A stretch of 61,984 nt of DNA from Methanoregula sp. (GTDB taxonomy: Archaea > Halobacteriota > Methanomicrobia > Methanomicrobiales > Methanospirillaceae), in NCBI RefSeq assembly GCF_028712425.1, contig NZ_JAQTQD010000015.1, positions 1-61,984 of the forward strand, given 5' to 3'. The position numbers were made by a program, and so were the translations under genes. Positions 10,096 to 39,826 of the stretch are shown here, piece after piece. How positions within the stretch are numbered: the first letter of the stretch is position 1; every line of letters begins with the position of its first letter. The notes beneath the pieces are model-generated. The model worked only from the letters and a program-made list of their open reading frames with translations. It did no database searches and was not told the DNA's origin.

Positions 10096-10550
10096 GTCGC
10101 GGTTGTAGCGTGGTGACCGGGGCCGGGTACCTGCCTGCCGGTACGGTGGGGGGTCCGGAAAATCCCATCGCCGGTCCCCCGCACACACCAATCTCTGGAT
10201 CGTAAACAGATCCTCAAACCGGGAGTTCCTATACTGTCATTTTTCCGGGGCAGTTTCAGCCCCTGTAGGGGGAAATGTATTCGGAAATCAGCCCGTTCCA
10301 AATCACTGTACTCTAATTCGCCAAAAAGTGCGATCCTCCGGAGACCGGTTTTTTAAAATGGACTCCGATTCGAAAAATAAGCCCGTAGCGTTGAGATACC
10401 TTTTCCGGAAATCCGACCTCGAAGAACGCTGATACGTTCTTCTCGACCTCCTGGTCTGACGACCAGTCGGTTTTCCAAAATAGCCTCCGAATCGAAAACG
10501 GAGCGATTAAAACGGATTTTCATTTATTGCTATTCCTGTAACAATGCCAA
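10096..10550. other. Non-coding stretch with structured repeats
   Basis: About 450 bases with no credible open frame. The first 200 bases show nothing I can identify. The second half contains two similar 32-base direct repeats and two perfect hairpins, which are listed separately. The composition is more AT-rich than that of neighbouring genes. Confidence 0.5.
10346..10499. repeat. Pair of 32-base direct repeats enclosing two hairpins
   Basis: The copies are at 10346-10377 and 10468-10499. Both begin CGGTTTT, contain AAAAT near the middle and CTCCGA then TCGAAAA near the end, and agree at roughly 26 of 32 positions. Between them lie GAAGAACG (10421-10428) pairing with CGTTCTTC (10435-10442), and CTGGTC (10451-10456) pairing with GACCAG (10461-10466). 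It could be a degenerate mobile element, a small RNA or a regulatory region. Confidence 0.5.
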
Positions 10551-10590
10551 GGTTTTAACCATTTATGCGCATATGTGTAGTAAATAGCCT
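10551..10590 (+). promoter_or_regulatory. Promoter with TATGCGCATA operator (copy 1)
   Basis: A TATA-like GGTTTTAACC (10551-10560) is directly followed by TTTATGCGCATATGTGTA (10562-10579), which contains the perfect palindrome TATGCGCATA. The same 18-base block, with at most two changes, recurs at 10989 and 12149, each time just after a TATA-like box and just before a small gene. The operator lies between the TATA box and the expected start of transcription, so a protein bound there would repress. The neighbouring DUF134 protein is the best candidate binder (inference). Confidence 0.75.
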
Positions 10591-10950
10591 ACGATCATCT
10601 GTGTTACTGCAAAAGGACCCACTCTGGACAGCCTCTTCGAACCGCATTTTGCCAGGGCGCCCTATTTTATTTTTTTTGATACCCGGACCCGGAAATCCGA
10701 AGCGATCAGAAACGGCTTCATTGTCCACGATACAAAGATCGGCCAGAATGCGGTACGGCTCCTCATCACCCGCAAAACCAAAACGCTGGTGACCGGGAGT
10801 GTCGGCGATAATGCCGGATGGCTCCTCCGCGGGGCCGGCATCAATCTCTGCCATTATGAAACCGCAGGTACCGTATCAGAAGCGCTGAGCACCCTGGTCC
10901 CCGGAAGTCCTGGAAAAAGCCGGGCACGGAAAGAGATACAGCAACGGTGA
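10591..10950 (+). CDS. NifX/NafY-like iron-molybdenum-cofactor-type protein with ACG in place of the start codon
   Basis: The frame from 10591 to TGA at 10948-10950 encodes 119 residues of the dinitrogenase iron-molybdenum cofactor biosynthesis (NifX/MTH1175-like) fold. CVTAKGPTLDSLFEPHFARA and PYFIFFDTRTRK open the domain, ITRKTKTLVTGSVGDNAG gives the central strands, and LLRGAGINLCHYETAGTVSEAL is the conserved glycine-rich end. The family normally begins M-x-I-x-V-T. Here the first codon is ACG, and an in-frame TAG lies four codons upstream with no ATG, GTG or TTG between. Either ACG is used, the start was lost by a T-to-C change, or there is a sequence error. Everything after it is intact, which argues against an old pseudogene. 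A possibly leaderless transcript would start close to this codon. Confidence 0.75.
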   Translation, partial: TIICVTAKGPTLDSLFEPHFARAPYFIFFDTRTRKSEAIRNGFIVHDTKIGQNAVRLLITRKTKTLVTGSVGDNAGWLLRGAGINLCHYETAGTVSEALSTLVPGSPGKSRARKEIQQR

Positions 10951-10977: not shown

Positions 10978-11021
10978 ATTTTAAATGATTTATGCGCATA
11001 TGAGTAATTATCGTACGACAA
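10978..11021 (+). promoter_or_regulatory. Promoter with TATGCGCATA operator (copy 2)
   Basis: The TATA-like ATTTTAAATG (10978-10987) is followed by TTTATGCGCATATGAGTA (10989-11006). The similarity to copies 1 and 3 continues with TAATTATC and GTAC (about 11005-11017). It drives the Cys/His-rich peptide, a small paralogous protein and the DUF134 regulator. The arrangement implies autoregulation if DUF134 is the binding protein. Confidence 0.75.
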
Positions 11022-11040: not shown

Positions 11041-11262
11041 ATGCCAGAAGAGACCACACACACAACACCACAGCAAAACGACGATGACAATCTCCCCCTG
11101 CATACCTGTGCATGTGGAGAACAGCACCGGCACCGCCCGGGCAGCCGGAGCCACCGGGAAGAATGCACGTCCGAGAAAAAATTCGGCGACTCCTGCTGCT
11201 GCGGACCGGCGGCCGGTTCGGGAAACCAGCACCGCTGCGGCCACGGGCCCCGGTGCCAGTGA
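11041..11262 (+). CDS. Cys/His-rich small protein, probably metal-binding
   Basis: A 73-residue hydrophilic protein with no family I recognise. It contains CACGEQHRHRPGSRSH in the middle and CCCGPAAGSGNQHRCGHGP toward the C terminus, so Cys and His are clustered in pairs and triplets. This composition suggests binding of several metal ions or an Fe-S cluster. It is the first gene after the second TATGCGCATA operator. ATG 11041 follows TGGTGAAC. Overlapping frames are open too, but this one has the strongest residue pattern. It may be a metal or cluster chaperone for the nearby NifX-like, NBP35 and AtwA proteins (inference). Confidence 0.55.
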   Translation: MPEETTHTTPQQNDDDNLPLHTCACGEQHRHRPGSRSHREECTSEKKFGDSCCCGPAAGSGNQHRCGHGPRCQ

Positions 11263-11295
11263 ACTCCCCTCACCCTTTTTTTGGAGCCTTCGGCC

Positions 11296-11610
11296 ATGCA
11301 ACGTCATCCGGAAGTCCCCGAGCTGCTGGAGCAGTACATGGAAGCATCCAGAACAGCAGAGTGCTGGATAACGGTCCGGGAATTCCGTTCCTTTTTCCGG
11401 ATGGACGAATCGGCAGGCCCCGCTATTTCGGGATTTCTCCAGCGGATCCACCATGGGCCGTTCTATGCGTGCCGTTACCGCGTGGCCCGGATGGAGAAGT
11501 TCCGCGACACTGCCCCGCCGTACCGGATCATCAAAAAGTACCTGGTACAGGCCCGGCCAGCCCCGCGGTCATCCCACATAAAGGGTGGAGTGCATAAGGA
11601 AAACCGGTAA
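11296..11610 (+). CDS. Small conserved protein, paralog of the protein at 14926
   Basis: A 104-residue protein whose first 75 residues align with the protein at 14926-15237. Shared blocks are PELLEQ[YF]M, W[IV]TV[RQ]E[FL]R, [IV]SGFL[QR]R[IL]H and PP[YR]R near the end. The helix pattern (short helix, TVREFRSFF, then SGFLQRIHH) resembles a winged helix-turn-helix, so DNA or protein binding is possible. GGAGCC at 11283-11288 supports ATG 11296 over TTG 11281. It is co-transcribed with the Cys/His-rich peptide and DUF134. I do not recognise a named family. Confidence 0.7.
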   Translation: MQRHPEVPELLEQYMEASRTAECWITVREFRSFFRMDESAGPAISGFLQRIHHGPFYACRYRVARMEKFRDTAPPYRIIKKYLVQARPAPRSSHIKGGVHKENR

Positions 11611-11655: not shown

Positions 11656-12015
11656 ATGGCAGCAGAAGAGAATCCCGTAATGAACGAATGCCCACGGCGG
11701 GGGAGGCCCCGGGTGCAGCGGACGATTGCCGGCAACGCCGAGTCCCGCTGCTACAAGCCCTGCTGCTGCGAGGGGGAGGGCGAAGGGATCACCCTCCAGC
11801 CGGAGGAGCTCGAACTGATCCGGCTTATCGACCTCGAAGGCCTGGAACAGGAGGCGGCAGCCGAGCGGATGGGCGTTTCCAGGAAGACGGCGTGGCGCGA
11901 CCTTCACGAGGCGCGCCGGAAGATTGCCGATGCGCTCGTGAACGGCAAGAGTATCGAGATGGGCGGGTGCACGAAAGCAGCCGAAGGCCGGTGCCCGAAG
12001 TGCCCGCGGGAATGA
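11656..12015 (+). CDS. DUF134 family DNA-binding protein
   Basis: A 119-residue protein of the DUF134 family, which often neighbours NifX-type genes in archaea and anaerobic bacteria. CPRRGRPRVQRTI is the basic N-terminal arm, CYKPCCCEGEG carries the family cysteines, and LELIRLIDLEGLEQEAAAER plus GVSRKTAWRDLHEARRKIAD form a sigma-factor-like helix-turn-helix. The tail GRCPKCPRE adds another CxxC. The cysteines probably bind an Fe-S cluster or metal and make DNA binding sensitive to it (inference). It is the best candidate for the protein that reads the three TATGCGCATA operators around it. Confidence 0.9.
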   Translation: MAAEENPVMNECPRRGRPRVQRTIAGNAESRCYKPCCCEGEGEGITLQPEELELIRLIDLEGLEQEAAAERMGVSRKTAWRDLHEARRKIADALVNGKSIEMGGCTKAAEGRCPKCPRE

Positions 12016-12140: not shown

Positions 12141-12181
12141 CTTAAATCTTTATGCTCATATGTGTAATAATTCCGTACAAG
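12141..12181 (+). promoter_or_regulatory. Promoter with TATGCTCATA operator (copy 3)
   Basis: CTTAAATC (12141-12148) as TATA box is followed by TTTATGCTCATATGTGTA (12149-12166), one base different from copy 1. TAATAATTCCGTACAA then runs to 12180, resembling copy 2. It precedes the DUF5320-like peptide and, seven bases after that gene, atwA. AtwA expression is therefore probably under the same control as the NifX-like and DUF134 genes. Confidence 0.75.
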
Positions 12182-12189
12182 GAAGTATC

Positions 12190-12345
12190 ATGCCGAATTA
12201 TGACGGGACCGGGCCGCTGAAACGGGGACGAGTGGTTGGGAGGGGAATGGGCCCCTGCCACCGCAGCCCTGACAGCTGCATACGAAAGGAAGAGCAACCG
12301 GATTGCCCTGCAAAGGACCGGGTGGAAACACCTCCCCGGGAGTGA
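12190..12345 (+). CDS. DUF5320-like small protein
   Basis: A 51-residue peptide starting MPNYDGTGPLKRGRVVGRGM, close to the MPGFDRTGPMGMGPMTGRGMG-type start of DUF5320 proteins, which occur beside NifX/NifB-like genes. A CxxxxxxC pair (CHRSPDSC) and one later Cys follow. Family members are thought to be accessory to metal-cluster proteins, but no role is proven. It is the first gene after the third operator, and atwA starts six bases later. Confidence 0.7.
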   Translation: MPNYDGTGPLKRGRVVGRGMGPCHRSPDSCIRKEEQPDCPAKDRVETPPRE

Positions 12346-14895: not shown

Positions 14896-14925
14896 ATCCG
14901 GCCTCCCATTTTGTTTTCAGGAGCC

Positions 14926-15237
14926 ATGAGAAAATATAACGGCATCCCGGAACTGCTGGAGCAGTTCATGCAGGCAGACGGCTCTGACAAGCGGTGGGTG
15001 ACGGTGCAGGAACTGCGCGACTATTTCGGCCTGACCCGGTACCAGTGCAACACGGTATCGGGGTTTTTGCGCCGGCTGCATGCCGGGCAGTTCGGGCAGT
15101 GCCCCTATGTTGTTGTCCGCGTTGATCGGGTGGCAGGGCACAAACCGGGCGATCCGCCACGGTACCGGTACCTGGTAAGCCGGAAGAACGATAGTACTCA
15201 GTCAATAACGGGAAAAGAAAAACCGGCAGAAGTATAA
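14926..15237 (+). CDS. Small conserved protein, paralog of the protein at 11296
   Basis: A 103-residue protein homologous to the one at 11296: PELLEQFMQA, WVTVQELRDYF, TVSGFLRRLHAGQFG and PPRYRYL occur in the same order. The pattern TVQELRDYFGLTRYQCNTVSG looks like a helix-turn-helix. AGGAG at 14920-14924 supports ATG 14926 over TTG 14911. It closes the AtwA/NBP35 island, so the pair brackets the island at both ends. Function unknown. The C-terminal 25 residues are polar and divergent. Confidence 0.7.
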   Translation: MRKYNGIPELLEQFMQADGSDKRWVTVQELRDYFGLTRYQCNTVSGFLRRLHAGQFGQCPYVVVRVDRVAGHKPGDPPRYRYLVSRKNDSTQSITGKEKPAEV

Positions 15238-38119: not shown

Positions 38120-39826
38120 ATGGCATCCGTAGAAAAATCCCAGAAACAGTTCCTCAAAGCACTCAAAGAGAAGTTTAAAGGTCAGGACGTTGAATCGCAG
38201 AAGACCGGCTTCTACAAGTTCGGGGGTCTTGCCCAGTCGCCGAGAAAGCGCGAGTTCATGGCGGAAACCCAGAAGATCGTGGCCGACCGCGGGATCTCGA
38301 TGTACGATCCCGAGCACTGCCACCTCAACGGCATCCCGATGGGCCAGCGGCAGTTGATGACCTACGAGGTCTCGGGCACCGGGACGTTCGTTGAAGGCGA
38401 CGACCTCCACTTCGTGAATAACTCGGCCATGCAGCAGATGTCAGACGAGATCAAGCGGACGATCATCGTCGGCATGGACATCGCCCACAATACGCTCCAG
38501 AAAAGACTGGGTAAAGAAGTGACGCCCGAGACTATCAACGAGTACCTTCATATCTTAAACCACGCGATGCCGGGTGGGGCAGTTGTGCAGGAGCACATGG
38601 TCGAGACCAATCCCGGCCTTGTGGATGACTGTTATGTCAAGGTCTTTACCGGTAACGATGAGGTTGCGGACGATATCGAGCCGCAGTACCTGCTTAACAT
38701 CGAGAAACTGTTCCCGAAGAAGCAGGCCGAGGCGCTTAAGGCCGAGATCGGGAAATCAATGTACCAGGCCATCCACGTCCCGACCATCGTGGTCCGGACC
38801 TGCGATGGAGGAACAACCAGCAGGTGGTCCGCAATGCAGATCGGGATGTCGTTCATTGCCGCATACCGCACCTGTGCGGGAGAAGCCGCGGTTGCCGATC
38901 TCTCGTTTGCAGCCAAGCATGCCGGTGTGATCCAGATGGGGTCACACCTCCCGGCCCGCAGGGCACGGGGCCCGAATGAGCCGGGCGGCATTAAGTTCGG
39001 CATGTTCTCCGATATGATCCAGGCCGACCGGATTCATCCTGACGACCCGGCAAAGGCCTCGCTCGAAGTCGTGGCGGCAGGTGCCGTGCTCTTCGACCAG
39101 ATCTGGCTTGGCTCCTACATGTCGGGCGGCGTCGGGTTCACCCAGTATGCGACTGCTGCATACACGGACAATATCCTTGACGATTTCACGTATTACGGCA
39201 TGGATTATATCAAGGACAAGTACGGGTACAATTACCGCGAGCCGGGACCGGGCAAGATCATAAAACCCACGCAGGAGATCGTCAGCGATATCGCGACCGA
39301 GGTAACGCTTTACAGCATGGAACAGTACGAGAAGTTCCCGACCCTGATGGAGGACCATTTCGGAGGCTCCCAGCGGGCGGCCGTGATCGCTGCTGCTTCC
39401 GGGCTTACCACATCCATCGCCACCGGCAACTCGAACGCCGGCCTGAACGCGTGGTACTGCTCGATGATCATCCACAAGGATGGCTGGTCACGGCTCGGGT
39501 TCTTCGGGTACGACCTGCAGGACCAGTGCGGGTCGGCAAACTCGCTCTCGATGGAGCCTGACCGCGGGGCAATGGGTGAGCTCCGGGGCCCGAACTACCC
39601 GAATTATGCGATGAACGTGGGGCACCAGGGCGAGTATGCGGCAATTGTCGCCAGTGCGCACATCGGCCGGGCCGATGCGTTCTGCTTCGATCCCCGGGTC
39701 AAGATCACCTTTGCCGACCCCTCGATGAAGTTCGACTTTGCGGAACCGAGAAAGGAGTTTGCCCGCGGGGCTATCCGGGAGTTCGAGGCGGCCGGGGAGC
39801 GGTCGCTGATCATGCCGGCGCGGTAA
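38120..39826 (+). CDS. mcrA: Methyl-coenzyme M reductase alpha subunit
   Basis: A 568-residue catalytic subunit. Key residues are visible: Gln157 in AVVQEHMVE is the F430 nickel ligand, His267 in FAAKHAGV and Arg281 in LPARRARG are the positions methylated in other species, Tyr343 in [10 protein letters not shown] lies in the active site, Gln418 in GGSQRAAV is a further modified position, and Gly463 in [11 protein letters not shown] is the thioglycine site, with Cys470 near it. The length is somewhat above that of the best-known enzyme, with about eight residues inserted between residues 343 and 418. It may be the mrtA type, which needs a phylogeny to decide. It closes the operon. Confidence 0.97.

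Follow-up and report, generated by a model that had tools for sequence, protein, structure and literature searches.

A NifX-like gene of a methane-making archaeon, with ACG at its initiator position, is probably a recently silenced copy

Near-cognate start codons exist in bacteria, where sigR is reported to start with GTC (PMC5472188). For archaea, a study of haloarchaeal short-leader reporters (PMC4574771) gives AUG as 5-37 times more efficient than GUG, and product from UUG as below detection. Our literature search, which covered titles and abstract openings, returned no work on ACG starts in archaea. Structures are available for NifX-type proteins of the PF02579 family: the PDB sequence matches of the frame described here had E-values of 2.7e-11, 1.6e-10 and 2.2e-4, with ORP (2wfb), the TM protein (1rdu) and MTH1175 (1eo1) among the solved relatives.

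The stretch of DNA analysed here, called the window, is 61,984 nucleotides long. It is contig C55 of a draft genome of Methanoregula sp., order Methanomicrobiales, which comprises 2.67 Mb in 56 contigs. An initial annotation had reported an intact NifX-like frame of 119 codons starting with ACG, with TAG upstream in frame and no ATG, GTG or TTG between the two. Each of these observations was reproduced. The codon order is TAG (10585-10587), CCT, ACG (10591-10593), ATC, ATC, TGT and so on to TGA (10948-10950), and the frame matches the PF02579 profile with E 5.7e-11 and 43 bits, above the gathering cut-off of 26.3 bits. A significant match over 119 codons rules out a chance open frame. That annotation did not include the missing Shine-Dalgarno sequence, the shorter leader, the intactness of the operator or the two further NifX-like copies on contig C51. 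The features of the locus are as follows.

10340-10512, no strand assigned: interspersed repeat upstream of the promoter, ending short of the start region
10553-10558, plus strand: TATA-like element TTTTAA, with the spacing to the motif found in relatives
10561-10575, plus strand: direct repeat ATTTATGCGCATATG, first copy, left end of the deletion in genome G033 by junction alignment
10566-10579, plus strand: operator TGCGCATATGTGTA preceding the NifX-like gene; the genome has six such sites when up to one mismatch is allowed
10580-10590, plus strand: shortened leader without Shine-Dalgarno, 11 nt from motif to ACG
10591-10950, plus strand: open NifX-like (PF02579) frame of 119 codons and a TGA stop; ACG stands where the initiator codon is expected
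10988-11002, plus strand: direct repeat ATTTATGCGCATATG, second copy, in the promoter of the next gene, right end of the G033 deletion
10993-11006, plus strand: second window operator, before the 73-aa gene
11041-11262, plus strand: 73-aa Cys/His-rich protein (MPEETT...), next gene, same regulon
11656-12015, plus strand: DUF134 protein with a sigma-70 region 4-like helix-turn-helix (PF02001, E 6e-23), probable regulator
12153-12166, plus strand: third window operator TGCTCATATGTGTA, before the DUF5320 gene (12187-12345)

Inspection of the frame found no ATG, GTG or TTG between the TAG at 10585-10587 and the conserved core. The whole protein lacks methionine, and the sole in-frame GTG, at about 10791, would leave roughly 53 residues. 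The alignment of relatives begins at residue 3 (ICVT/ICIT), which places ACG exactly at the initiator position; together with the frame reading, it rules out a wrong register in the initial annotation. One relative (L030, genome G052) reads GTG ATC ATC TGT GTC ACC where the window reads ACG ATC ATC TGT GTT ACT. ATC is a rare start in NCBI translation table 11, and since codons 2 and 3 are both ATC, ACG is not the sole near-cognate candidate. Family membership suggests a role in FeMo-cofactor or iron-sulfur handling, and the gene looks like an accessory one, of small iron-sulfur type, in a methane-making archaeon.

Matches to the NifX-like frame were found in 30 of 60 relatives, in 14 of 39 genomes of the genus and, at E up to 1e-20, in 10 of 108 genomes of the family, the last two counts including the window's own genome. 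No copy closer than 58% identity was present in these three sets, and no closer copy was found in plasmids, genome_contigs or viral_contigs, searches from which records of the own genome were possibly excluded. The own genome carries two further copies on contig C51: one at 39820 (53% identity), intact and of the same subfamily, HFARAP, and another at 38855 (44% identity).

Start codons were scored in 34 relatives, two of an original 36 having been dropped beforehand. At the codon homologous to ACG, 32 of the 34 have ATG, GTG or TTG; the remaining two, from G040 and G045, are fusions that join two NifX-type domains in frame. A near-cognate codon was the only start in none of the 34, so that the start is not conserved as near-cognate. 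Among family members fetched beyond this set, L103, L104 and L106 have ATG and L105 is a remnant. Counted within the HFARAP subfamily (n=10), seven copies have ATG and three have no start: the window copy and those of G017 and G151. In the two fusions (L018 in G040, L008 in G045) a Shine-Dalgarno-like AAGGAG persists at the old start of the second domain, where the start codon is now GTC or ATA.

Most relatives show the order promoter, operator, Shine-Dalgarno, ATG. In the window the promoter and the palindromic operator are exact and the translation signals are gone. The element TTTTAA at 10553-10558 is taken by us, following the archaeal rule, to be the TATA box, which would presumably put the transcript start near 10578-10583. 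The resulting leader of about 8-13 nt makes the predicted message short-leadered and not leaderless. As a conserved feature, the non-AUG start on a leaderless message proposed in the initial annotation is not supported by the start codons of the relatives. The distance from motif to start is 11 nt in the window versus 17-25 nt in the 22 relatives with the motif within 75 nt, a shortening of 6-14 nt. The pairing energy with the anti-Shine-Dalgarno is -1.7 for the window versus a mean of -6.3 for 32 relatives, of which only one (L024), an ATG gene, is as weak or weaker. Random 17-mers from the window average -3.3, and no strong Shine-Dalgarno offsets the weak ACG.

When positions 10340-10600 were compared with the own genome, 39 matching places were obtained including the query itself, nearly all spanning query positions 5-180 only. 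This interspersed repeat, of intergenic type, has several copies on contigs C20 and C36 and is present also in G033; AATAGCCTACGATC shows, by eye only, a short resemblance to part of it. Repeat-mediated damage to the start was rejected, the repeat stopping near 10512, short of the start.

Selection on the gene was analysed with a codon model in our own implementation (15 sequences, 108 codon columns). Fixing omega at 1 on the window branch fitted worse than a free omega (2d = 20.96), so neutral evolution is rejected; the remnant of G017, used as decay control, gave omega 0.66, with 2d 0.48 from 1. The gene was under purifying selection in the past. With synonymous substitutions saturated on the window branch (branch length at the upper bound, 12), the omega estimate of 0.015 is not reliable as a point value; what can be used is that omega 1 is rejected and that the length of a neutral tail is limited. 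With tails of none, 0.01, 0.05 and 0.1 the log-likelihood was -3712.75, -3712.95, -3713.80 and -3714.99, which disfavours tails longer than about 0.09 synonymous changes per codon. The tree place of the window copy is weakly supported (bootstrap 47-56 at neighbouring nodes).

All 16 columns invariant across a wider set are kept in the window copy. Among columns invariant in the other intact subfamily members, 10 of 46 are changed in the window, versus 0-4 of 36-40 in those members, making it the most deviant full-length-frame member of the subfamily at conserved columns; the value for the G017 remnant is 5 of 29.

The sister genome G033, the closest relative, is 89-92% identical to the window in long syntenic blocks. 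Searched together with the relatives and genus genomes, it gave no NifX-like match. Its locus (L095, about 10613-10575) is 427 bp shorter than that of the window, and the junction links the left half of the nifX promoter, via ATTTATGCGCATATG, with the right half of the promoter that serves the next gene. The next gene's promoter is of the type TTTAAATGATTTA in the window and most other species, and the G033 state is therefore derived, a deletion from a window-like order. G033 keeps a hybrid promoter after the precise loss of 427 bp between two operator copies.

The HFARAP subfamily is lost repeatedly. In G017 the subfamily copy is 5'-truncated and without a start, its frame otherwise open, so that an open frame alone is no proof of a working gene. 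In G151 (L105, match at 1501-1794) an HFARAP-type remnant has no start and an internal TAG. This remnant stands about 650 bases before an operator site.

In our reading, to which we give a probability of roughly 60%, the window holds an additional copy of an accessory NifX-like gene that was silenced recently. A small deletion most likely removed the Shine-Dalgarno sequence and shortened the leader; with the start codon now reading ACG, what is left are the transcription signals, namely the TATA-like box, the operator and the DUF134-linked cluster. Transcription from the intact promoter, governed by the operator, is likely. With neither a start codon nor a Shine-Dalgarno, little or no translation is expected. 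The missing translation signals, the shorter leader, the kept promoter, the past purifying selection, the deletion in G033 and the remnants elsewhere are observed; the absence of a useful product, a deletion as the origin of the leader change and the sequence in which the lesions arose are inferred. A recent loss would explain why the frame is still open. The sister lineage lost this gene through recombination between the operator copies on either side of it.

The standard start in 32 of the 34 relatives, the weak anti-Shine-Dalgarno pairing, the short distance from motif to start, the deletion in G033, the start-less copies of G017 and G151, the intact copy of the same subfamily on C51 and the 10 changed columns speak for silencing. 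Against it count the rejected neutral evolution and the limited neutral tail, the 16 invariant columns that are kept, the exact promoter and operator, the existence in the family of an ATG gene without Shine-Dalgarno (L024) and the state of the frame, where no stop, frameshift or further disabling lesion was found in the 119 codons. A recent loss of function would leave no signal of relaxed selection. Window and G033 differ by 0.289 synonymous changes per codon (2079 codons), or about 0.145 per lineage; with the neutral tail limited to about 0.09, the death of the gene, if it is dead, probably post-dates the split from G033. The initial annotation had offered a silencing point mutation. Silencing is the best supported explanation, but with the Shine-Dalgarno gone and the leader shortened it amounts to more than a single point mutation. 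As a silenced copy, the locus would be an early step of gene loss caught in progress, with a clean deletion between operator repeats to be seen in the sister genome.

The main rival reading is a functional gene, translated at low level from ACG or from one of the ATC codons (10594, 10597), its leader being short and free of a Shine-Dalgarno. Purifying selection over most of the branch, the intact frame and family-invariant residues, and the exact promoter and operator agree with this, and sigR offers a bacterial precedent. Yet no relative relies on a near-cognate codon, the two relatives without ATG, GTG or TTG being the fusions, and compensation by a Shine-Dalgarno is absent. As UUG was undetectable in the haloarchaeal short-leader reporters, ACG is a poor bet as a start. 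We regard low-level translation as somewhat unlikely. That ACG (or ATC) is the true start on a very short Shine-Dalgarno-free leader behind a DUF134-controlled operator, yielding a third NifX-like protein at trace level, is in our estimation unlikely. If true, a start of low efficiency would have evolved naturally in a methanogen, and the gene would be a rare natural test of archaeal ACG initiation.

A sequence error, also raised in the initial annotation, or a strain polymorphism is a lesser rival; that the living cell carries a working gene with ATG at 10591 is quite unlikely. A single transition turns ATG into ACG, the assembly is a draft, and selection seems intact until recently; but one wrong base leaves the Shine-Dalgarno loss and the shorter leader unaccounted for, though ATG without Shine-Dalgarno does occur, in L024.

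Recoding from an upstream ATG (10573 in frame, in ATG TGT AGT AAA TAG CCT ACG; or 10565 out of frame), with the TAG at 10585 read as pyrrolysine or by readthrough, or with a frameshift, is very improbable: the operator motif contains both ATGs, they precede the position predicted for the transcript start, and across relatives the frame of this ATG relative to the gene is not constant; pyrrolysine readthrough is unsupported, the genome (about 97% complete) giving no match over the TIGR02367 (PylS, pyrrolysyl-tRNA synthetase) cut-off and four weak ones; and a frameshift from the 10565 frame at CAAAAGG was ruled out by inspection, as it would skip the conserved ICVTAKG.

The operator was searched for beyond the window. 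In the own genome TGCGCATATGNGTA occurs six times at up to one mismatch versus once for the reversed control, and each of the six lies ahead of a gene in one of two clusters: that of the window (ACG gene, 73-aa protein, DUF5320) and that of C51 (the two NifX-like copies and one more NifX-type protein). Among the matches listed for TGCGCATATGNGTAAT in 150 genomes of the order there were 33 in 28 genomes, and none for the control. The palindrome TGCNCATATGNGYA was present in 115 of the 150 genomes versus, by our own count, 14 of 150 for the control.

DUF134 is found in 119 of the 150 genomes. By our own count, the motif occurs in 104 of these 119 versus 11 of the 31 without DUF134 (Fisher p 2e-8, an optimistic value because the genomes are related). 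In 49 of 69 genomes typed for both (50 with the left-out G114 row) a site lies within 10 kb of a DUF134 gene on the same contig; in the other 19-20 the motif and DUF134 are mostly on different contigs. This co-occurrence and proximity make DUF134 the probable regulator binding an order-wide operator, and the palindromic operator before the NifX-type, DUF5320 and 73-aa genes probably marks a DUF134 regulon. The same cluster holds two related proteins of about 108 aa (11281-11610 and 14911-15237) without a Pfam match, the first also without an NCBIfam match. The titles and abstract openings searched held no work on DUF134 function, and in Pfam the family is still named 'protein of unknown function'. 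The shared operator and its link to DUF134 open the idea of a small, order-wide NifX-type regulon to direct testing, and this side result may merit more attention than the ACG itself.

Like sigR (PMC5472188), the window has a near-cognate codon at the initiator of a frame that was under selection; on the window side this codon is not shared by relatives and lacks a Shine-Dalgarno. The frame belongs by sequence to the same family as 2wfb, 1rdu and 1eo1. Unlike them, the window copy has neither start codon nor Shine-Dalgarno, and it is a divergent member of a subfamily, HFARAP, that occurs in few genomes. From start-codon-loss pseudogenes it differs in that its frame has no other lesion and no sign of long relaxed selection, whereas it resembles them in the standard start of its relatives, the redundant copy elsewhere in the genome and the deletion of the gene in the sister genome.
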